Shown here: positions 8,739-53,500 of the stretch, one piece after another
Layout: each line of letters opens with the position of its first letter
Numbering within the stretch: position 1 is the stretch's first letter
From: Tubulanus polymorphus
Lineage: Eukaryota > Nemertea > Palaeonemertea > Tubulaniformes > Tubulanidae
Reading direction: 5' to 3'
Length of the DNA stretch: 64,000 nt
Assembly (NCBI RefSeq): GCF_964204645.1
Contig: NC_134027.1
Span: 4,824,485-4,888,484 of the forward strand
Program-made: the position numbers and the translations under genes
Notes under the pieces: model-generated
Told to the model about the DNA's origin: nothing
Seen by the model: only the letters and a program-made list of their open reading frames with translations
The model's database searches: none

Positions 8739-9258
8739 TGGGTCTCGGTAAAGTGCCACAGAATACAAATAAATGATGATTTCTCGGACCGAATGCAGAA
8801 ATGTCAAAATCAAAATTTAACAAAGATGTTGAGGTATGGCTGTAGCTAAATAATTATTAGGTAGTAAAACACGGTTTGGACTACGGACACGTGTTCGGAC
8901 CATTGACTTCTCACAACTTGTAGAGCCGACCGTTGACCATGAAGTTCCGGCTCGATTGCAAAGTTTCGCCGAAATTATCAAGTGAAAATCTACCCCTTTC
9001 CCTGAATTCGGAGTGTGTGCCTATGGAAGCTCATATAGTGTTCTGACGGTTGACTTGTGTAAATCCTCAACGGGTGGTAGAGGGGAGTATTGATTTATAC
9101 TTATGGCCGGGTGCATTAAACTAAGTACAAATTAAAAATCCATCAGTCCTAATAGGCCTATGCGTAGACAAGTGCTGATATTGACTGAAATAAAACCTGA
9201 CAATTTACGATTTCATTATTTTCAATTCGCACACGACGGGTGGCGGTTTCACTAAACC
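8739..9258. promoter_or_regulatory. divergent intergenic region, DALRD3 / GPCR
   Basis: This 520-bp gap lies between the two divergent start codons and probably holds promoters for both genes. It contains a palindromic E-box CACGTG at 8888-8893. I see no convincing TATA box, open reading frame or repeat. The regulatory role is inferred from position only. Confidence 0.35.
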
Positions 9259-10194
9259 ATGAATTCAACAAAACCGATTGGCCGGGCGTACAATAGTTAC
9301 ATTCTGCTCATGGCTGTAGAAAATCAATCTGGCAGTCATCGCATGGTCTCATTAGTTATCTTTACGATTCTATTTTCGATGGGAGCCTTTGGAAATACAG
9401 CTACTTTCCTGATAATGATAAGTCATAGATTCAGGAATTTGTCTTACGCTAATTATCTGATCGCCCTCTCTATTTGTGATTTTATGTTTTGCCTCGACAG
9501 CACGTTGATGCCTGTGCTGCAATTTGTTATTTTACACGTTGATAATCACCCGATATATCTGATGAATTCTCTGATTAGTTGTCAACTTTACGAACATTTT
9601 GCGACGTTTACGTGTTCTATGAGTTCATGGTTTATAGTAGCGATATCTCTAGAACGTGCGGCAGTTGTGCTCTTCCCGTTCACGTCTCGTTTGATATGCA
9701 CACCCAGATTCGCACGATGCGTTATATCCGCCATTTTCGCGATGAACCTTTTGATTATAGGAATTCCAGCTCCAATATTAATGCGTTTTTCTATCAACGG
9801 ATGTCACTATAATCCGTATGACCAATTCTATGTTAACATAATTTTTGTTGTTTACGTTTATGTTCTACCATTGGCAATAATCATTACGTGTAATTGCGTG
9901 ATAGTCATTACTTTATTCAAGGATTCGGTATCTGTTTCGTCGACCAAGAAAAACACAAACGCAAAACGTACAACGATAACGCTTGTAACAGTTTCACTGG
10001 CGTTTACATTATTCACAATTCCAACCACTATCAATGCATTTCTGCCAATTCCTGCCGAACAGAGAGACATACTTTTTGCTATTCTTAATACTTTCGTAAC
10101 ATGTAATTATGTCATAAACTTCTATATATACCTTTTACTGGGGCGCGAGATCCGAGAATATTTCTGTGAACGGTTTTGCTGTTTATGTCGATGA
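9259..10194 (+). CDS. class A (rhodopsin-like) G-protein-coupled receptor
   Basis: Intronless 311-residue seven-helix receptor in the plasma membrane; the ligand is unknown and a peptide is plausible. The short N-terminus has N-glycosylation sequons at N2 and N22. TM1 spans about 30-54 with GN at 45-46 (N1.50). TM2 carries LSICD with D74 (2.50), and C108 sits at the top of TM3 for the conserved disulfide with a Cys in extracellular loop 2. The TM3 end reads E132-R133-A134 instead of DRY. TM6 lacks CWxP and reads FTLFTIPTT. TM7 ends NYVINFYIYLL, a variant of NPxxY, followed by a short Cys-rich tail. This resembles lineage-expanded invertebrate orphan receptors near the FMRFamide/peptide receptor group. 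Later Mets at 18 and 29 are alternative starts. A decayed copy of its 3' end lies at 12281-12625. Confidence 0.85.
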   Translation: MNSTKPIGRAYNSYILLMAVENQSGSHRMVSLVIFTILFSMGAFGNTATFLIMISHRFRNLSYANYLIALSICDFMFCLDSTLMPVLQFVILHVDNHPIYLMNSLISCQLYEHFATFTCSMSSWFIVAISLERAAVVLFPFTSRLICTPRFARCVISAIFAMNLLIIGIPAPILMRFSINGCHYNPYDQFYVNIIFVVYVYVLPLAIIITCNCVIVITLFKDSVSVSSTKKNTNAKRTTITLVTVSLAFTLFTIPTTINAFLPIPAEQRDILFAILNTFVTCNYVINFYIYLLLGREIREYFCERFCCLCR

Positions 10195-12940: not shown

Positions 12941-13067
12941 CTGACTCGATATAGTCGAAACGTTGAAATAAACTACTATCTCGAAGTTTCATTTTCGGAC
13001 TTTTTATTATCATTGTGGGATTCTCTCCTCATCGCGTCAACACGGACATAGTGTTCTACCAATCGTG
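12941..13067 (+). repeat. dispersed repeat, copy A (GAAACG family)
   Basis: About 125 bp, from the ACTCGATATAGTCGAAACG motif through the tail ending near ATAGTGTTCTACCAATCGTG. It is nearly identical to 15110-15236 inside intron 2 of the GTPase-kinase gene. I cannot assign a transposon class with confidence; a Penelope-like or related retroelement end is possible. Confidence 0.7.
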
Positions 13068-13440
13068 AACTGTTTATTCATACTTAAACAAAAATTTGAT
13101 TTTTATAAATAAATTCATGTTCCCTTCAATTTTAAAATGCATACTATAAAAAAATCTTTTTCATGTTTTTCTCTTCGCCCTCCCATTTTGTTCTTGAAAA
13201 AATCCGTTCTCCGAGAAAAAACTTTAGGTTGAATTATGTGTCAATAAAACGTTTTTCTAGCGTTGGCGCTCTGGAAAATGCAGGAATCGAACCCAAAGTT
13301 CAAGTACCGTTCCAATCGTCCAGTCCGATCCCCATTCCGCACTTCCTGGTTGTGTCAAAATGCAAAATGAAACAGGTTTTTGGCTTTTTCGCCAAGCGAT
13401 TTAAATATGTTTGTAAGAGGTTTCGTTCAAGCATTTCAAC

Positions 13441-16400
13441 ATGTCTAGTCAGTACAACTACACGGAAGAAATAGTCAGTGAGTTGGGAAATATTTTTGAT
13501 GCCCTTGATTTGTTGGAAGAAAACAAAATAGAAATCGGCAGTTTGGAAACTTTGGCTGAAATGAAAGATTTATTGATCAGCAAGTTGAATGAAGTTTCAG
13601 ATGTACCGGTAGGTTCAGACAAGATAATCATCTCTTTCCTAGTAAAGCATATAGCAATAGGTCCAGAGACGGACGGTGCAGAATTCTAGGCATTTTAACT
13701 CTAAAGTTGTTTAGGCTATTCTATAAAAACTGAATCGCCTGTGACGTTGTCACAGGTTCGACAATAATGAAAAATATGGATCTTTTGAAAAACTGTATTT
13801 ATTTTGAATAACAAGTGGAAGAAATCATTCAATAGCAGGGTCCGATCTAAGGAATGAAAGCCATTTGCCCGGGGGGCAAGCATATCTGAAATTTCACTTG
13901 CCCCCTCCAAAAGCTTCTTGCCGCCCTGCACAGGCAGACCGATTGTTGGCATTATCATCCATTGTATCAAGTGGGAAAAAAGCTTTGAGACATGAAATTG
14001 CACTAGCCCGTGGGGGGCAAGTGATAATGATAACCTACTTGCCCGGATGAGAATATACTTGTCCCGGACAATCGGACGTGCTTAGATCGGACCCTGCGAT
14101 AGTATAGGCTACCTCATTATATATTGTGTTTGAATTTATTTTTGCAGGTTCAAACAGAAGTGGACTGGTTTCGTGAAATTGCGCATGACCATGAAGTAAA
14201 AAAGCTTGATCTGATGAAAATATATGCGCAGTTATCTGAATTACTATTATCATTAAAAGAAAAACCTAGAGATCAGATCGAAAGACAAGTTCCCGATTGC
14301 GTTGATAGACTGATGCAAAATAACAGCGTTCTAGCGCATAAGGGCTGTCCAATACTGGTGGCTGGTGAGTTTGGCGTGTATAAGTTTTGGAATAAATTTT
14401 TAACCCTAATGAACATGTTTATCCAGAGTCTGAACCCTTTCAGTGCGTCTACACCACAGTGCGGTGGATGAATCCTTGATGTGTATTGATGTAGTTAGTG
14501 CGGTGTATTGATGTGATTAGTAATTAGTTTTTATCTCTATTGAAAGATGGCGGCACCTGTCAAACATTGTGAAATATTAGTAACTAACGATACACTGCGC
14601 TGCGGTGTATACACACTATATGGTATTCCCGTTATTCAACACACTAGGGTGGAATTTTTCAAAATTTTCAAATTATCTCCAGCACAGCATAGGGTATTGG
14701 TTAGTCAGCACTGAAAGGGTTAAGAGGAGTGTAGGTTATCCTTGCAACTGCCGGTGATATGATTCTCTGTGACTGCCAGCGATTGGATGCCCTTGTGACT
14801 TCATGCTCTAGTGACTGAAAGAGACTAAAAGTTTCACACAACATCTCTGACAATCAGGTCACAATCAACCTCAATTCCAATGTAGAGAGAATCCCACAAT
14901 TATAACGAAAAAGTCCGAAAATGAAACTTCGAGATAGGGAAGCAAACTAAGTTTGCTTCCCTTTAATCTATTTTAGCTTGTAACTGTTTCTACGTTAATT
15001 TTCCTTTAGTTTGTATCATCTCTGATTACTTGAATTAGTCTCTTTGTCTCTTGATTGTATATATATCTCATAATTTTTGTAGTTTCTCATTATTCCTGAA
15101 GATGACTATTAGGATATAGTCGAAACGTTGAAATAAACTACTATCTCGAAGTTTCATTTTCGGACTTTTTCGTTATAATTGTGGGATTCTCTCTACATCG
15201 CGTCAACACGGATATAGTGTTCTATCAATCGTGATCAATTCCAATTTGTAACCAGTCGCATTGCGTCGCAAGCAGTCGACTTACACCAGCCTGGAAGTTA
15301 TACTCAATAAGTGTATTCTCTTATTTTAAGGTGAAACTGGTGCAGGAAAAAGTAGCTTCCTTAATCTCCTGATCGGAGAGGATATTCTACCGGTTGATTG
15401 CTATGAGAGCACCACTTCAACCATCTGTGAAATTAAACACTCCGATAGTAGATATGCCGTCATTCATCGGAAAAATGGAAAAGATCCTATCAATGAAAAA
15501 CTAGATGGAAGATTAGATGGCGTACAAAAAATATTGAATAAATATGTGAATATTGTCTCTGATGATCGGTCTCAAAATGAATATGAGCTTGTCGAGATTT
15601 TCTGGCCAATACCAATTTTACAGGTACGTACTATTTATAAATGAACTTGTTAGAAATTCAGATCTTTGTAGAATTGAACGGTTGAATAGACATTTAAGAG
15701 TATGTATTGATATATTATATGTTTTAGGGAAATGTGTATATCGTTGATAGTCCAGGCATCGGAGAAACAGAATCCATGAATCAGAATATTTACAAGTACT
15801 TACCAAATGCTGCCGCTTTCATTTACATTATCAACAGTAAGAATGCTGGTGGTGTTACTGATGATAGAGTAAGTACTTCTACTGAGATTCTCTAATTGTA
15901 TTTGTATATCTTCTTTATCGAGATTTCAATGCGTTAATGTTGTTCATCTGTTAATGGTTTCAGTTGATTACTCTGATTGGTCATGTCAAAGAAATTTTAT
16001 TCGATGAAAAAGTGCTACAGCGTTTCGATCCCCGTTCAGCCATATTCATTTTCAACAAATGGGATCAGGTACCAGAACAATCTCGCGATTCAGTTGCCGA
16101 TAACATGACTAGTAAATTACAGTGTTGGCCTGGACTTGATATAGATGAACAAGTTTTCTTTCTTTCTATTACTGAGGTGAGACGGCCACTTTTAAATTCT
16201 TACGGTTCTTGTGCATTACATGTACTAGGAAAACGCATTTTTTCTTTTCTGTTGACAGGTTGTGCGATGTCGAAAGCAATCTATTGGCATGACAAAACAG
16301 TACGCGGATATCATGCATGGATTAAGGAAATTCTTAAAAACTGGATTGGAAATATCTACTAGAAGACATTATAAGTATGAAACATCTCAATCTTCAATGA

Positions 16401-18754
16401 TCTCATATTCCGCCTTACTCTTTTGAGAATCAGGGAAATAGAAACATTCTCCAGATACATTTTGGTAAAATTCCTTGATTCGAGTGGTTTCCTGAGTAAG
16501 ACGGAATCTACTGCATCTTTAACCTTCAGATTTTAAGTGTACACCCTGATATTGTTTGTATAAATTTACAGTTGGCTTCGACACATTTTGGATCGTATCG
16601 AGATGCCTCTTACATCTCCTATTGCAGCAGCTCGACGCAACAAAATCGAACGTACGGAAATAAAGAAGAAAATTGGTAAACAAATACACAATCTATACGG
16701 AAAATCGGATCGAATTATTCAAGACCTTGAACATCGACTGAAAACTGAGGTTGATACAATTGTTCATGTGCTTCATGAGCATCTGAAGTGTAAGAGTACG
16801 CGTCAACGTTTGTTTGAAAAATGTACAGAATATGAAGGAATTTTACCAGACAGTGACGAGTGGTGCACTGTGAAAGATGAAATACAAAATTTAGTATTCA
16901 AAATCATTAATGATGAGGTCACTGAATGGGAGAAAGATAAGTGTATGTTCATTCACGCCAAGTCAGAACTGGTTTCCATGTTGAAAGATCGCTTTCATTT
17001 GTTGAATTCCGAGTTGGAGCGAATTGAACGTGAAATCCGAGGTTCCTCATTGATGTCTGTGTCGACAACCAGTTTGAGAAAATTTGAAAAATTTGGTTTG
17101 TTTGGATACACTGAAAAAGCTGTACTTTGGACGACGGCTCCTTTGTGGTTTCCCTTAGCTATATTAGCCAGTGTCATAGCTTTACCTGTTTATGGTTCAA
17201 TCAATATATTCAACCATATATCTCACAGCCGAAAAATGAAGAAGTTCACCAGAGATAAGATGATGTACTTGCAAAAGGAAGTGTCCAAATATTTAGATTG
17301 GCTCGACTTGGATGCTGTAAAAACAACTCTTGTTGAAAACCATCTAGTACACCTAGCCAATTACACAAAGAAATGTACCGCAATTATCAAGCGTTTCCTC
17401 GAGGCAGATAAAGAACTGCTCGATGAACTTGATGGAAAATCGGTACTGTGGAACACACAAACAATACTTGACGAGTATATTCCGATATATGGTAAATTTC
17501 GGCGAATTTTTTCCCAGCTCGAAGTCATGCATTTTCGTCATTATTTACATATAGATGATGAAATTTTCATCGATAAAGACCGCTTTGTCTCGTGGGGTAA
17601 TAGGATCGGGAGAGGAAGTTTCGGTGATGTTTATGAAGCTCATGTCCAGATAAATTTGGCATGCTCTGTGTGCGGATCGCGATGGGAGGAGAGAAAATGT
17701 GCTGTGAAAATTATCGAGGTCGAAGTGCATCGACGATCGAGTCAGCCTCTAGAGTTGGCCCATGAAATTAAAGTGCTCAGGTAAGTAACACCTTACGGAC
17801 AATAGGAGGATCCAAACATGTCTGAAGGCGATTTATTGAAATTAGTATATATTTTCAGGAGCATCAATTCCGAACGTCACAAGGTTTGTGAAGACTGTTT
17901 TTATGGTGACAAGTCTGAAAATATCTCCAATCAGTCACACGATTCAAGTGTTCAAACAATTCAAAAGCCCCAATTACATGAACACATAGCTAAAGGCAGC
18001 AGAAACGTCATACGTCTGTTCGGAGTCCATTTTCAAGAAAGCATAAAAGCTGAAGTGTTACTAGTCATGGAGTACTGCAAAGAAACTCTGAAGGATGCTA
18101 TATTTAATAATAGTCAAAGAATTCCAGCCAAACATCTAGAATTGGGGCAAGAATTTAAAAGCGCAGTTGAGTTTTTCTTTAAGTATGCTATTCGACTAAC
18201 GCGTGGATTAATGTATATACATGATCTGCAAATCATTCATAGAGATTTGAAACTGGAGAATATACTGGTAAGTAATCGTGTAATCAATTTGAACTCAAAT
18301 CATTACCAACTTAATCTGATACTCATTCATTTTACAGCTCACCGAAGACGGTCAGTTGAAGATAAGTGACTTGGGAGTGGCAAAACCAGAGAAACAAATA
18401 ACTGGAACAATGAAAGGTACATTAGCGTACCTTGATCCGGAAATATTGCGCGGAGGTCTGTCAACACGTCCATCGGATATATATAGCCTTGGTTTAATTT
18501 TGTGGGAAATGTGGTATGGCTGCGAAGTTTTTGCGGATTATTACGAACTTGGTTGGCAAATTTTACAACAAGATATACTCGATGGAGTGCGGCCAGATTT
18601 TAGTCAACGACGAGCACCATTTTGTAAACTACAGGATTTAATGATCGGATGTTGGCACAATGATCCATGGAAACGGTTTTCTGATGCGCGGTGTAAAAAA
18701 GAACTTAAAGCTTTAAGGTCCATAATAGATGAATTAACCCTTCCAACGTTGTAA
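13441..18754 (+). CDS. dynamin-like GTPase fused to a DSTYK-like protein kinase
   Basis: Nine exons (13441-13608, 14148-14364, 15331-15623, 15728-15868, 15964-16176, 16259-16374, 16572-17780, 17859-18267, 18338-18754) give 1060 residues, all phases consistent. The N-terminal helical region is followed by a GTPase domain with G1 GETGAGKSS (129-137), G3 DSPG (233-236) and G4 NKWD (304-307). A helical middle contains a strongly hydrophobic stretch at about 567-596, possibly a membrane-insertion segment. The C-terminal kinase has a glycine loop at 728-736, lysine in CAVK (762), HRD at 913-915 and DLG at 933-935. DLG in place of DFG, followed by AKPE, resembles DSTYK (dusty kinase). In vertebrate DSTYK the region before the kinase lacks a recognisable G1 motif, so this is a DSTYK-like form with both sites apparently intact. 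Substrate and location are unknown. AATAAA lies at 19300-19305. Confidence 0.88.
13836..14096. mobile_element. MITE with CAGGGTCCGATCTAAG inverted ends
   Basis: About 260 bp in intron 1 of the GTPase-kinase gene, bounded by perfect inverted repeats (CAGGGTCCGATCTAAG and its complement). It has no coding capacity. The CAGGG ends recall hAT elements, but flanks CAATAG and CGATAG match at only five of six bases, so the target duplication is uncertain. Confidence 0.65.
14435..14719. mobile_element. TTAA-type MITE, copy 1
   Basis: About 285 bp in intron 2 of the GTPase-kinase gene. The ends CCCTTTCAGTGC and GCACTGAAAGGG are inverted repeats. The right flank is TTAA and the left flank TGAA, probably a mutated TTAA. 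It is homologous over its length to 38179-38466. TTAA targets and a CCC start fit piggyBac-derived non-autonomous elements. Confidence 0.75.
14887..15236. mobile_element. foldback element with GAAACG hairpin, copy B
   Basis: Lies in intron 2 of the GTPase-kinase gene. Inverted arms of about 52 bp (14887-14938 and 15141-15195) share GAGAGAATCCCACAATTATA and its complement. The right half continues in the same sequence as copy A (12941-13067). A hairpin with stem GACTAT/ATAGTC just before GAAACG lies at 15103-15126. The class is uncertain. Confidence 0.65.
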
Positions 18755-19461: not shown

Positions 19462-22056
19462 TTATCTGACACAGCTAAATATTGGTTCTCCAGACTGTGA
19501 GATTAAGTGTTCATCAGTTTGTATCACTCGAGGACCGGGACCAACCTTGAAAAATATGATAGAAAGAGGAATAAGTGATACTTCATCTAAACATTTTACT
19601 AGTGGTTGGAATGGATTTAAATTTACCTGAGTGGTGATGATGTATTTGATAGCATCTGATTGAGGTTTAAACTTTACTTCAATTTTCTGATGATCATCCT
19701 AAAAACCTCAGTAAATGAATGTACTTTCATTGCACTGTCTAAAACGAGCTAAAAATCTAAAATTTTCAAATGATACCTGATTGATTGGCTGTATATCACA
19801 TTGTAACCCTTTCATCGTTAACGGATCATTTGATGGAAAATGATGATTGATTAAACTGACGAATTTTGTGACTTCATCCTCCAACATGAATAAACAGGCA
19901 TTTGGACCAGCATCAAATGTATACGCTACCTGAAATGACAAGAGTTTAAATGACATGCAGTAGACGATTACCTTCCTAGTGATGAAAAGCTGTAAATTTT
20001 CACTGACCTTTACTTGGTTTTGAGATCGGTTGTACGCATGCACCAGTTGCATGATGGTATTAGAAGTATCGTTAGTATAAAATATCGGTGGATATGTATC
20101 GCGGCAGATTGCATGAAACTGATTGCTCTCCTGAAAACATTGCAGAATATTGATCACAGAAAACATGAAGCTTCTCGTCACTGCATTTATTTCAATAAAG
20201 CACTTAACAACATACTTGCATTGTTATTTCAGCGAATGTTTCGAAATCTTTGTCATTCCAAGCTTCAGTGAGTTTTTGTACTCTATTTGTAACAATATGC
20301 TTCACCCGATAGTCAAGTAGTGAACTAGTTTCTACTGATTGTTGCATGCCCGCTGTACTAGCCGTTATCTTCTTTTGATCGTTTACCTAGTCAAATATAC
20401 CAGAATTTTATTAGAATAAATAAATATCATTTATCATACAATAACCAAATTGAAATTCAGATAAACTTACAACCAATATGATAATTCTCATCTGTGGCCA
20501 GTGAGATTCTGTAAAGAGTTGCTTAGCTCTAGAATCCGATCCATCTTTCTCTATTCCACAATCCCACATGACTAATCCGCCATATATACTTCTACATGCA
20601 CTTCCTGAACCTATCCTTGAAATAAAAACAACTTACTTATAAGAAACGTTTCAGTACCTAAGACATCGATAAATCATAGAAGCAATTGTTTGCTTCTGAT
20701 AACGATATTTGCATTTTATTTACCTCGCTATGTCGGAAACATCACCTTCAATATGGAACAACTTTGAAAGACAATATGCTGTGAATATGAAAATAAATGC
20801 AAAAAAGGAAGTAGAAATTTTTAGCGAAGAAATTGGCAAGCTTTATTCATACACAGTAATCATTGGTGGTATTTACCAAGACAGGCATATCCCGCAGCGG
20901 AAGAAGCAAGACCAGCAGCAGTTGGGAAGTTATTTTCCGAGTTAATGCGAACATGCCATCGACTTGTATCCGAATCATTTGTCTCTTCGTGACGCCTCTT
21001 ACAAGATCTACGACGAACTGAATACGAATATTTAAGACTAAAAGAGGAAAACATTTTCTAGAAAACTCATAGTCACAATAAGTAACTTACTCTCTTTAAG
21101 AACAGCCTTCAAACGAGGATTGTCGATTGATTGCACCCTAGAATACCAAAGGATAATTTCTAATAGATCTGAACATATTAGTGACAATGGTGTTTAACGG
21201 ACTGATAATTCTTACTTGTCATTCAACCAGATTCTATCCTCTGTAAATGATGGGGAAATAGCAACAGTTGTCTTCGTTCGCAACTTTAAGGAGTGGAAGA
21301 GTGAAGTATATATGAATCAATCTGAATCATTGAGCTGCATGTTTTATTTGACTGGAAGTAGGTTTAATAAAATTACCTGGTCTTGGTGCAATGTTGCACT
21401 AATTGAGGAATTTAGAGGTAGAATAAGTTCTTCATTACGTTTTCCCCCTAAAAATGAATAATTTTAATGCAAATTTCTGCAAGGGTCTTCACCCCACAGT
21501 TACAAGCTCTGTAGCCGTGTAGGATTTTAAGAACATATATAGACCATTCAAATAATTTCATTCGCACACACCCAGTATCCTAGGAACTATATATAAAAAG
21601 ACTTAATATAAAAAATCTTTTTATATATAGTACCTAGGATACTGGAGTCAAAAACTTTTTGTGTCAGGTTCCTGTGCTCACACACAATAAAATTAAGTCA
21701 TTTTAGCAAACTAAAGATTATTATATTATAAATTCTTCGTTACAGGACCAGGAAGACAGATTATCAACCTGAATCGCACTTTTCCAATGTGCAATTTATA
21801 CAATTTCTTTCTAATTTTAGTAGGCCCTACTAAAATTTAGTTATGTTATATTAGTTAGGCCTACAAATCCACATGTTGCCGTACGTAACAACGAACAACA
21901 ACTAGTACTGAAGTAGGCCCTAACTCTAGTCTACTCTAGATACCCCGCCGGTCCCGGCGCCGGTAAGGATAGAATCCTACTACACTTACAATATTTGATG
22001 ACAGCTATATTGACAGGTGCAGTGCATGTGATTCTCCTAACTCTGTTGTTGGCCAT
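19462..22056 (-). CDS. MVD: mevalonate diphosphate decarboxylase
   Basis: GHMP-family enzyme that converts mevalonate 5-diphosphate to isopentenyl diphosphate using ATP, the last step of the mevalonate route. Exons in coding order: 21990-22056, 21377-21447, 21216-21283, 21091-21137, 20877-21037, 20724-20778, 20471-20615, 20216-20386, 20008-20130, 19777-19929, 19627-19698, 19462-19545. The product is about 405 residues, the usual size. Motifs are [15 protein letters not shown] across exons 1-2, [10 protein letters not shown] (3), the ATP-binding [14 protein letters not shown] (5), [12 protein letters not shown] (7), SNQFHA (9), the catalytic [10 protein letters not shown] (10) and VGPGPRV (12). 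The exon 4/5 junction is unsettled: the good donor at 21090 gives the wrong phase, and the in-frame alternative is a weak donor 4 nt on, leaving a roughly 50-nt intron. All other phases agree. It is convergent with the GTPase-kinase gene. Confidence 0.92.
21573..21644. repeat. short hairpin with about 30-bp arms
   Basis: Arms around CCAGTATCCTAGGAACTATA pair with the complement ending ACCTAGGATACTGG, separated by a short AT-rich loop. It lies in intron 1 of MVD and is probably a small foldback element. Confidence 0.7.
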
Positions 22057-50548: not shown

Positions 50549-53500
50549 TCATCTTCCCATTCCAAACATGTAACGGAAGTGGTCAATGCGACCGCCCCGT
50601 TGCCGAATGTTGGTAGAATCACCTCCACCGAATCCTACGCGTCTCTGTTTAGCCGGCCATAGTTTCAATAATCGAGCTCTTTTGCTGCCAAGAGCTCGAT
50701 TTTTATGCTTAAAAAAGTTCAGTATACGGCGCTTTATGGATTTTAAATCTTCAAGGCGACGATCGTCTTCGGTAACGTCGGATCCGGGTTCCATCGAGGA
50801 ATCCTGCTGGGATTCTCCCCCGTCATGATAATCGGCCGAATACGGTACACCAAAAACACGATTGAAAGCATTGCCACTTTCAAAATTCATAAATCCTTGA
50901 CGCTCTAATTTTCTCAACTGTTCTAAATCCAATTCATGAAAATCGATGGGTAGTTGTATTTTCTCCCGACTACTGAGGGCTATCATTTTTTTCCTGAGTT
51001 CAACTAGCTTGTTTTGCGAGTTTCCTACAGAGCTCCGTTTGCCCAAGCCGAACCTATATCGATACATATCGATACGTGAGCGTTTACCAGAATCAGGACT
51101 GACGAACAGAGGATTTCGTTTAACGTTGCTCGCTGGAGATTTTGTGATATCGAGCAGTCCACTATGGGAGTATACGTCTGATGTCTTATGCATATCAGAT
51201 GAGGTACTACGTTTTTCAATTTCACTTTGCCCCGCAACACTCTTGATTGCTGTCGTCGGGTTTGATACATCGGGATACTGATGTTTCCAAGTTTCTGTAA
51301 TAGAGAAAGAAGATTCCATTATAACTTAAATGTACAGTACATCACCCAAGATCTGATATTCGGATCGGGACTGTTGCTGACGTTCTAAACAGAAAAAAAA
51401 AACGATGATGGGAATTCAGTCGGCGACAGACCACGACGGTCGTCGCGAAATATCAATCTAGATAAATCACTCTTACGGAGCATTTCACGTGAAGAGATCG
51501 TCAAAAATTCATTCGTTCTATTGATTCCGTCACATGGCAATGATAAATCATTTCTCAAAACTATAGGATTATAAAGTTAACACCAAATAGCTCTTCGATA
51601 ATACGATGAAATTGAAATTCGTACAATCTGCCATCGTGTTTTATAGACATCCTTTTTTCATGCGTAGGTGAATAGAGGAGTGACTATGACTATTTCCCGC
51701 TAGACCTGTAGGCTTATCTACGACATGATTTCTTCGGGAAACAATTATAAACAGTCCTACACTGTTTTGCTATAATTCTATTAGGTCGTTGTCAACTAAA
51801 AGCAGTTGTGCGATATCCATCAATTTAGTAACGTTCTCATTTGAGTGACGTAAACTCTTTGACCAGACGATTCAAGAATCCTTTCATGTGTCTAGTGTAA
51901 TTGCGTAAATACCGATAACAGAGACAATCTGCAACGATTTACAATATTTTTGATGGTCGGAATTATCAGAACGAAGACTTACATCGTGAGCGATTGTATT
52001 GATAAACTGAAGGAGTCATATCGGTTTAACGACATATCTGAAATCTTAAACATTTAAAGCCTCTTTTACATAAGATTCCGGAAAAGGTAATGTAAGTGAT
52101 TTTAGTTGGTACACATACCACGCGCACAGTACACATCGTGCGTTACTGGTCGTTTCTTAGTTTTTCTACCCGAGGAACTTGAGCAATATTACCCGATAAT
52201 GGATCGGTAATATGTGGATTAATTGCTTTTTTAATGTATCCGTGAACATATGATAATTTGAACCATAATCCATATGATTATAGGCTATATGAAACATAAA
52301 GATACGTATTTATAATATGATGATCCTATTCTCGATTTATTGATTGTAAATGTAACAGTCTTTATCATTTTAAAAACTTTTTTCGGCAACATTGCATTGA
52401 TGTAAACTGTCGGTCATTTAACTGATAACATTCACTGTATAATGACTATCACGGACGAACATTTATCGCGTTTTTTTTTTGCAACACGACCTTAATCATT
52501 GGTGGTTCGATAGCGTAAATCGAGTGTCGATGATAAAAAAAAGTGAGAGCAGCACCGAGCACGTGTGTGTAGTGTGTATGCTTGTGGCTGTAACTCCCGC
52601 GAGATTGCCGTTAAGATCAACGATAGCGTGGAACAAGAGAGCGATAACTTCTTATCTCGCGTCCATTCTTTGCTGTGTAATTATCCTGGGTCGCTACCCG
52701 TAAAATAACATCCTCCGCTCAACGCTTTACTGATTGTCAGCTACTCCCTCGGCGAGGCTTCGAAAAACCGCCACTAGTTGGCTGATTAAGCGTGTTTTAT
52801 ACCTCGCCCCTCGAAAACCCACCACATTCGTTCTCTATATCCGCACCTGATTAGTGCAGTGATGGATTTACAAATGACTAACATACCATTGCGTATATGA
52901 ATTATTAGGAGGGGTCAGTTCGCCTACTTGTAATAACTGGTCATTCGTACGGCCATTCGGTCATATAGACACATCCATATAAGTCGTTATTCTTGCCATA
53001 TAAATACTAATTAGCAAGCTACAACGCAGTAAAATGCTGCAAATGCACGCGAAATATATTGTATAATCGTGTCACGTTGTAGCACCTACCGAATCTTTTT
53101 GGCGTTTTTTCAACGTAAATTCGTTGATCCGGATCTCCAATCTAATCTATAGTCATTACAAATTGGATAATCTTGTATCAGGAAGATATAATTACCACGC
53201 ATTTATTCTAGGATTTAAGAAAAAATAACGCTAATCGAACGAAATGGCTCTTCGTATTTTAAGAGCAATTTAAGTGTTAATCACAGGTGTCAAAATCATA
53301 TCGTGTTTAAGCGTATTCGTTTCGTGTTAGACTTTGACATGGATCCGGTTTTCGAGGCAGCTACACCTGCCCGAAAACACGATAATATATGATATGTTCA
53401 AAATAGTATCATATAGCATCAGTTTGTTTAATGATCAAAATTCCTTTAAAAAATCAGATTTTTCCACTTTCTGTTTAGGCCTACTGTTAGAGTTAAAATC

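Follow-up and report, generated by a model that had tools for sequence, protein, structure and literature searches.

A mitofusin-class GTPase and a kinase encoded in one chain, on a probable branch beside DSTYK, in Tubulanus polymorphus

Results

The window analysed here is a stretch of 64,000 nucleotides from the nemertean Tubulanus polymorphus (assembly GCF_964204645.1, contig NC_134027.1, positions 4,824,485 to 4,888,484 of the forward strand). At positions 13441-18754, on the plus strand, lies a gene of nine exons whose introns are all GT-AG and whose single open frame encodes a protein of 1060 amino acids (aa), with a dynamin-type GTPase (G) domain, a putatively helical trunk that includes a hydrophobic stretch, and a C-terminal protein kinase. 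Splice sites were chosen by a script that ran through GT-AG combinations near the expected borders; eight of these were open, all with nine exons and 1057-1064 aa, and the best gave the 1060-aa form.

Both active sites are intact by motif. The G domain contains GETGAGKS (aa 129-136, G1), DSPG (aa 233-236, G3), and NKWD (aa 304-307, G4) and matches Pfam Dynamin_N over aa 125-265 (E 4e-18; 66.4 bits against a cut-off of 27). The kinase matches Pkinase over aa 817-1040 (E 4.5e-38; 131.6 bits against 31.7) and keeps its lysine, alpha-C glutamate, HRD, and D[FL]G, as read from GRGSFGDV (aa 729-736), CAVKII (aa 759-764), HEIKVL (aa 780-785), HRDLKLEN (aa 913-920), and SDLG (aa 932-935), the last with DLG in place of DFG. 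In one uninterrupted frame, exon 7 (1209 bp) leads from the trunk past the hydrophobic segment to the alpha-C helix of the kinase N-lobe; the two halves are therefore physically joined and are not two neighbouring genes. That two adjacent genes were misread as one is thus hardly credible, and in three relatives described below (C4a, L026, and L027) the border between trunk and kinase likewise falls inside one exon. An earlier note, made from the letters of the window, had proposed a GTPase and a kinase with intact motifs in one nine-exon gene, with DLG replacing DFG, and the gene is confirmed as such a double-domain chain. The best 19-residue Kyte-Doolittle mean of the hydrophobic stretch is 1.98, and that of a paralog on contig C7 (L032) is 2.02.

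Two CxxC motifs, CSVC (aa 747-750) and CEDC (aa 796-799), were noted in inserts of the kinase N-lobe and could form a metal site. Copies of a dispersed repeat lie upstream of the gene and in intron 2, where the repeat makes up perfect inverted arms of 58 nt. Positions of these and other features are collected in Table 1.

Table 1. Positions within the window of the GTPase-kinase gene, its parts, and other features
Feature	Positions	Strand	Content and basis
7-transmembrane receptor frame	9256-10194	+	intronless; 7tm_1 E 4.3e-18
Dispersed repeat, upstream copy	12948-13068		upstream of the GTPase-kinase gene
Exon 1	13441-13608	+	aa 1-56, N-terminal helical part; open frame, GT-AG
Exon 2	14148-14364	+	ends within the codon of the first G1 glycine (phase 1)
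Inverted arms in intron 2	14880-14937 and 15141-15198		perfect, 58 nt
Dispersed repeat, intron 2 copy	15113-15234
Exon 3	15331-15623	+	completes G1 GETGAGKS; switch I stretch; Dynamin_N 125-265
Exon 4	15728-15868	+	G3 DSPG at 15746-15757; phase-0 intron at its end, compared with mitofusin and DSTYK
Exon 5	15964-16176	+	G4 NKWD at 16054-16065
Exon 6	16259-16374	+	end of G domain, start of trunk; mitofusin 1 match reaches aa 365
Exon 7	16572-17780	+	helical trunk, hydrophobic stretch, and kinase N-lobe, same frame
Hydrophobic stretch, aa 566-596	17119-17211	+	candidate membrane paddle; Kyte-Doolittle
Kinase N-lobe motifs GRGSFGDV, CAVKII, HEIKVL	17608-17778	+	motif reading
CxxC motif CSVC	17662-17673 (approximate)	+	kinase N-lobe insert
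CxxC motif CEDC	17904-17915 (approximate)	+	kinase N-lobe insert
Exon 8	17859-18267	+	kinase; HRDLKLEN at 18238-18261
Exon 9	18338-18754	+	kinase C-lobe; SDLGVAKPE at 18365-18391; stop codon
Mevalonate diphosphate decarboxylase exon	19708-20223	-	MDD_C E 2.1e-32; faces the GTPase-kinase gene
Neuropeptide-precursor-like frame	50549-51325	-	contains YRFGLGKR and FRYMFGMGR; by eye resembles allatostatin-A; no Pfam family

For classification of the G domain, the N-terminal 713 aa of the protein were compared with solved structures. The best match was BDLP of Nostoc (E 5.1e-13), followed by mitofusin 1 (E 1.9e-9, aa 107-365), mitofusin 2 (E 5.6e-9), and IniA (E 2.1e-4); in the alignment, the G4 of BDLP reads NAWD and that of MFN1 reads NRWD. 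By this homology, the G domain is assigned to the mitofusin/BDLP class of the dynamin superfamily, which bears out the dynamin-like domain with GETGAGKSS, DSPG, and NKWD that the earlier note had described. The mitofusin gene of T. polymorphus is a separate locus, with exons at C7:13954858-13966785, and this rules out mitofusin orthology; no mitofusin-specific family appears among the 11 Pfam families listed for the protein at E 0.1. The same list contains no Roc GTPase domain, ruling out membership of the Roco/LRRK2 group, and no RHIM, death, CARD, ankyrin, or LRR domain; with no such RIPK-type extra domains, membership of the RIPK family was ruled out as well.

The genome (268 Mb in 77 contigs) was then searched with the N-terminal half of the window protein and with a human DSTYK sequence. 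The N-terminal half gave 10 matches, namely 7 to the gene itself and 3 to weak G-domain places. Human DSTYK gave 39, the top rows of which fell on a DSTYK gene on contig C3 and on a tandem gene pair on contig C4. The kinase exons of the former (C3:7.778-7.788 Mb) are up to 76-81% identical to the human sequence, and the assembled protein is 52% identical to it over ortholog residues 3-835 (833 residues). The human sequence used carries K681 and D777, matching the kinase-dead mutants of PMC11933320.

Provided that the human sequence used is right, this better ortholog in the same genome rules out DSTYK orthology of the window gene, and BLAST found no alignment between the N-terminal halves of the two proteins. 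It is consequently very improbable that the window gene is the DSTYK ortholog with an ancestral G1 retained, even though DLG followed by KPE is common to the two kinases, a single kinase clade with DSTYK is tolerated in tree tests (below), and the DSTYK ortholog was the top scorer when the window kinase was compared by BLAST with 22 others. The wording "DSTYK-like kinase" is the weakest point of the earlier note: that top score, 87.4 bits, is barely above the scores of L037, an unrelated kinase of the same genome (78.2 bits), and of IRAK4 (68.2 bits), and the kinase score alone is not decisive. We assign the window gene to a lineage beside the DSTYK branch, with one divergent and apparently kinase-dead paralog on contig C7. 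The earlier note had left the choice between an ancestral form and a lineage-specific branch; of these, the ancestral form is not supported.

In the DSTYK ortholog (L022, reverse strand), we also noted a pair of 156-bp exons of equal phase (G000:C3:7781023-7781178 and 7780428-7780583). They encode kinase residues 702-754, with letters that differ around the hinge, and are candidate mutually exclusive exons.

The G motifs of the DSTYK ortholog are broken, with G1 reading GQTSNAKA, G3 reading SPCR, and G4 gone; the human protein reads GQDCNVKC at the G1 position, in keeping with the earlier description of vertebrate DSTYK as having no recognisable G1. Dynamin_N matched the ortholog at E 0.064, yet in register (residues 4-52 with profile positions 1-47). 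By comparison, the C4 tandem pair (C4a and C4b, or L024 and L025; G000:C4 ~24277198-24281249 and 24286674-24290721) is intact in both halves, with GQTKAGKS, DSPG, and NKID in the G domain and AVK, HRD, and DFG in the kinase (for C4a, Dynamin_N E 1.4e-14 and Pkinase E 1.2e-39). Only 14 of 2508 coding bases differ between the copies (dN 0.0056, dS 0.0057), indicating a very recent tandem duplication.

The N-terminal half of C4a aligned to that of the DSTYK ortholog (residues 87-658 to 4-564) with E 3.1e-16 for 1e8 residues. By HHalign, the DSTYK G region scored 98.5% against six G-intact paralogs, and the DSTYK trunk scored 97.8% against the paralogs when the ortholog was combined with human DSTYK and 96.6% when it stood by itself; among 20 shuffles of this single ortholog sequence, the highest value was 1.0%. 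Against an EHD-like G domain, the DSTYK G region scored 0.1%, which is not significant. Alignments, trees, and HHalign runs used a shorter form of C4a; an alternative splice with 11 more residues fits the paralogs better. From these alignments, the N-terminal half of DSTYK is classed as a degenerate mitofusin-class GTPase. The presence in the same genome of the DSTYK-type tandem pair, whose G1, G3, and G4 are intact, makes a GTP-regulated ancestor of DSTYK likely; of the ancestral GTP-regulated form suggested in the earlier note, the ancestor is thus upheld as likely, but the window gene is not supported as being that form.

To delimit the family, Pfam Dynamin_N matches across the genome were collected (17 in all), and the surroundings of 12 were read: the window gene, both C4 copies, and nine other regions (L026-L034). 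The remaining matches (C3:1522495, three at C7:20.195-20.205 Mb, and C5:7974296) make the family count a lower bound. A G domain of the same type was present in six of the nine regions (L026, L027, L028, L030, L031, and L032). The other three, an EHD-like gene (L029), part of the mitofusin locus (L033), and a classical dynamin-like gene (L034), were not counted, L029 and L034 being named from sequence. The family therefore comprises at least 10 loci (the window gene, DSTYK, the C4 pair, and the six regions), 9 of which have a kinase or a kinase remnant.

Losses fall on either half. G1 is intact in 9 of the 10 loci, DSTYK being the sole exception, and the window gene and the C4 pair alone have a textbook NKxD G4. 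Other forms of G4 are NQWD in L032, NKSE in L026, NKVE in L027, and SKCD in L030 and L031, with L028 read short of G4; any GTPase activity of paralogs with a non-textbook G4 would be a guess. The kinase lysine, HRD, and DFG/DLG are kept in four loci (the window gene, DSTYK, and both C4 copies) and broken in five. L032 has HFDLSLDT in place of HRD..N and NFS in place of DFG; L026 is without DFG, as is L027, which reads FAEYSPNN; and L030 and L031 have lost the HRD stretch, with no DFG region found in either. Only 3 of the 10 loci (the window gene, C4a, and C4b) are intact in both halves.

Kinase remnants were scored with a hidden Markov model (HMM) built from four sequences, the window kinase among them. 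Values of E were 1e-11 for L032, 1.1e-5 for L031, 4.7e-4 for L030, 8.7e-4 for L026, and 0.098 for L027; at E 5 there was no row for L028, L033, or L034, and L029 gave one row at E 0.5. With Pfam Pkinase, L032 was above the cut-off (E 4.6e-22), L026 slightly under it (31.0 versus 31.7 bits), L030 gave a piece under it (E 0.0014), and L027 gave none. The remnant in L027, weak by its own kinase score, was accepted because residues 139-1024 of L027 aligned to 11-940 of L026 with E 8e-94. For L028, a G domain but no kinase was found in the 10 kb read (G000:C3:18165001-18175000). From ~6 kb in that region, behind the G-domain gene, a long short-repeat stretch of 'ARDNSLFWFYRPRQF'-like units was noted.

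Intron positions were tabulated for nine genes (mitofusin, DSTYK, C4a, L026, L027, L030, L031, L032, and the window gene), and all nine have a phase-0 intron in the loop that leads to the G4 strand. Upstream of this intron, the window gene and L032 have a loop with three extra residues, so that identity of place hinges on gap placement; in C4a the second-best splice was taken for equal spacing, the best-scoring one lying 33 bases earlier, also in phase 0. In the EHD-like gene the frame is open across the site. A phase-1 intron within the first glycine of G1 is common to the window gene, L032, and C4a; that of mitofusin lies 4 bases further 3', and L026, L027, L030, L031, and DSTYK have none there. 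The phase-0 intron after HRD..N[IV]L in the window gene, DSTYK, and C4a was set aside as non-diagnostic, several other kinase exons seeming to end nearby.

Trees were calculated for each half. Among the 13 rows of the G-domain tree, the window gene pairs with L032 (97/98), its closest paralog (N-terminal half E 1.9e-38, kinase E 8e-13), and the eight rows of the DSTYK branch group together (90/94). BDLP falls weakly beside the window pair (60/44), and a single clade of all ten was not rejected (p-AU, the p value of the approximately unbiased test, 0.271). The kinase tree had 23 rows, with 14 of 17 fetched genome kinases, BMX, and IRAK4 as outsiders; it omits L046, L047, and L049 (the latter two without a usable frame), as well as C4b, L030, and L031. 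There, the window kinase again pairs with L032 (88/83), near L037 and IRAK4. The best kinase tree thus sets the kinase that the earlier note had linked to DSTYK apart from DSTYK and C4a (92/77), but all seven as a single clade were not rejected (p-AU 0.219).

Discussion

The explanation that we favour, and consider rather probable, is that the window gene encodes a mitofusin-class GTPase with a C-terminal TKL-like kinase, on a branch beside DSTYK, in which GTP-dependent pairing would fire the kinase at membranes. Starting from the anatomy and homology above, we infer that the protein binds membranes, turns over GTP, has kinase activity, and couples the three, as follows. GTP binding would pair G domains across molecules that sit on one membrane or on two facing ones, by analogy with mitofusin and BDLP, and the trunk with its hydrophobic stretch would keep the protein on the membrane. 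Pairing would then cluster two kinase domains and switch them on, so that the kinase would signal upon tethering or fusion of membranes.

Several results weigh against this account. In the search with human DSTYK, the window kinase came out at E 8.9e-8, ranked under several other kinases of the genome. The hydrophobic helical stretch proposed earlier is present as a hydrophobic stretch, but a structure predicted for exon 7 by itself, the longest one-frame piece, had a mean predicted local distance difference test (pLDDT) score of 35, and the stretch drops to 1.36 in C4a and is missing from DSTYK, where no trunk maximum exceeds 1.13. Direct HHalign comparisons of the DSTYK G region were not significant, either against BDLP with MFN1 (3.4%) or against the window protein with L032 (5.2%), and the link of DSTYK to the mitofusin class therefore runs through the paralogs. 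The trunk of the window branch scored 0.1% against DSTYK and 0.4% against C4a, L026, and L027. Finally, the support from DSTYK biology concerns a protein whose G domain is dead.

Because the trunks of the two branches are unlike, the branches may be separate fusions, each having linked a GTPase of the mitofusin class with a TKL-type kinase on its own. We regard this as a serious contender, if somewhat short of an even chance. It would agree with the split of the branches in the kinase tree, with the window pair near L037 and IRAK4, with the place of the window branch by BDLP in the G-domain tree, and with the N-x-W-D form of G4, which the window branch has in common with BDLP and MFN1. Against it, neither the ten G domains as one clade nor the seven kinases as one clade could be rejected, and the window gene, L032, and C4a have the phase-1 intron in G1 in common.

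Whichever history applies to its fusion, a mitofusin-class GTPase-kinase acting at membranes remains our preferred reading over one in which an IRG- or GBP-like GTPase of cell-autonomous immunity was joined to a kinase and expanded in this lineage against pathogens. The many diverged paralogs with one active site lost, the very recent tandem pair (14/2508), and the activity of DSTYK in STING signalling (PMC11933320) would suit such a role. It appears unlikely, however, given that IIGP matched the window protein at E 0.03, under its cut-off, and that the closest solved structures belong to BDLP and mitofusin rather than to IRG or GBP proteins.

More broadly, and only tentatively, we suggest that animals had, and some retain, mitofusin-related GTPase-kinases in which GTP-driven tethering fires a kinase, DSTYK, a human disease gene, having lost the GTPase but retained the membrane module, and others having lost the kinase but retained the GTPase, with the window gene still doubly active. 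Published excerpts on DSTYK offer some points of contact. Endogenous DSTYK overlaps LAMP1 puncta, and its overexpression enlarges and fuses late endosomes/lysosomes (PMC6981171); a dead mitofusin-type GTPase half would fit both this late-endosomal seat and the organelle fusion. Colocalisation with LAMP1 and binding to STING persist in kinase-dead DSTYK (PMC11933320), and its presence at LAMP1 sites would be expected if the N-terminal half is a membrane module. Mice lacking the DSTYK kinase domain are reported to develop without obvious defects, a truncated protein still being expressed (PMC6981171, citing others). Hereditary spastic paraplegia 23 and malformations of the kidney and urinary tract have been tied to DSTYK (PMC8490499), as has STING signalling (PMC11933320); DSTYK has been grouped with IRAK1-3 and RAF, apart from RIPK1-7 (PMC9573974); and dusty kinases were described in tick, sea urchin, and honeybee, with loss in most insects suggested (PMC2100071).

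In their excerpts, these papers treat DSTYK as a kinase and are silent on the nature of its N-terminal half. No report of a DSTYK-dynamin link was found in the openly licensed PubMed Central literature (CC0, CC BY, CC BY-SA), to which the following also refers. Neither word is in any title or abstract of the DSTYK and dynamin matches, and the sole match for DSTYK and mitofusin is, by its title, on another subject. Among the matches listed, only PMC10492769, a RIP-kinase skin review, has both DSTYK and GTPase in title or abstract; those listed for dynamin-like with pseudokinase and for pseudo-GTPase show, as listed, nothing on a GTPase-kinase architecture, and none of the latter has DSTYK. The novelty of the architecture is thus that it was not found in this literature. 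The window gene and other relatives in which neither half is broken pose the question of whether a fusion-type GTPase can switch a kinase in the same chain.

The window protein can be set against four known systems. It is like DSTYK (dusty protein kinase, also called RIPK5) in that an N-terminal mitofusin-class module precedes a kinase in one chain and the kinase reads DLG and then KPE; in DSTYK, however, G1, G3, and G4 are broken, the strong hydrophobic stretch is absent, and the gene is a separate one in T. polymorphus. With mitofusin and BDLP it has in common the class of G domain, the N-x-W-D form of G4, and a putatively helical trunk with a hydrophobic stretch, and with the T. polymorphus mitofusin the phase-0 intron before G4, whereas mitofusin and BDLP are not known to contain a kinase. 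The RIPK family likewise has a TKL-type kinase with DLG, but its extra domains are not listed for the window protein. LRRK2 and other Roco kinases, and DAPK1, also combine a GTPase and a kinase in one chain; LRRK2/Roco proteins do so with a Ras-like Roc plus COR, as opposed to the dynamin-type G domain of the window protein.

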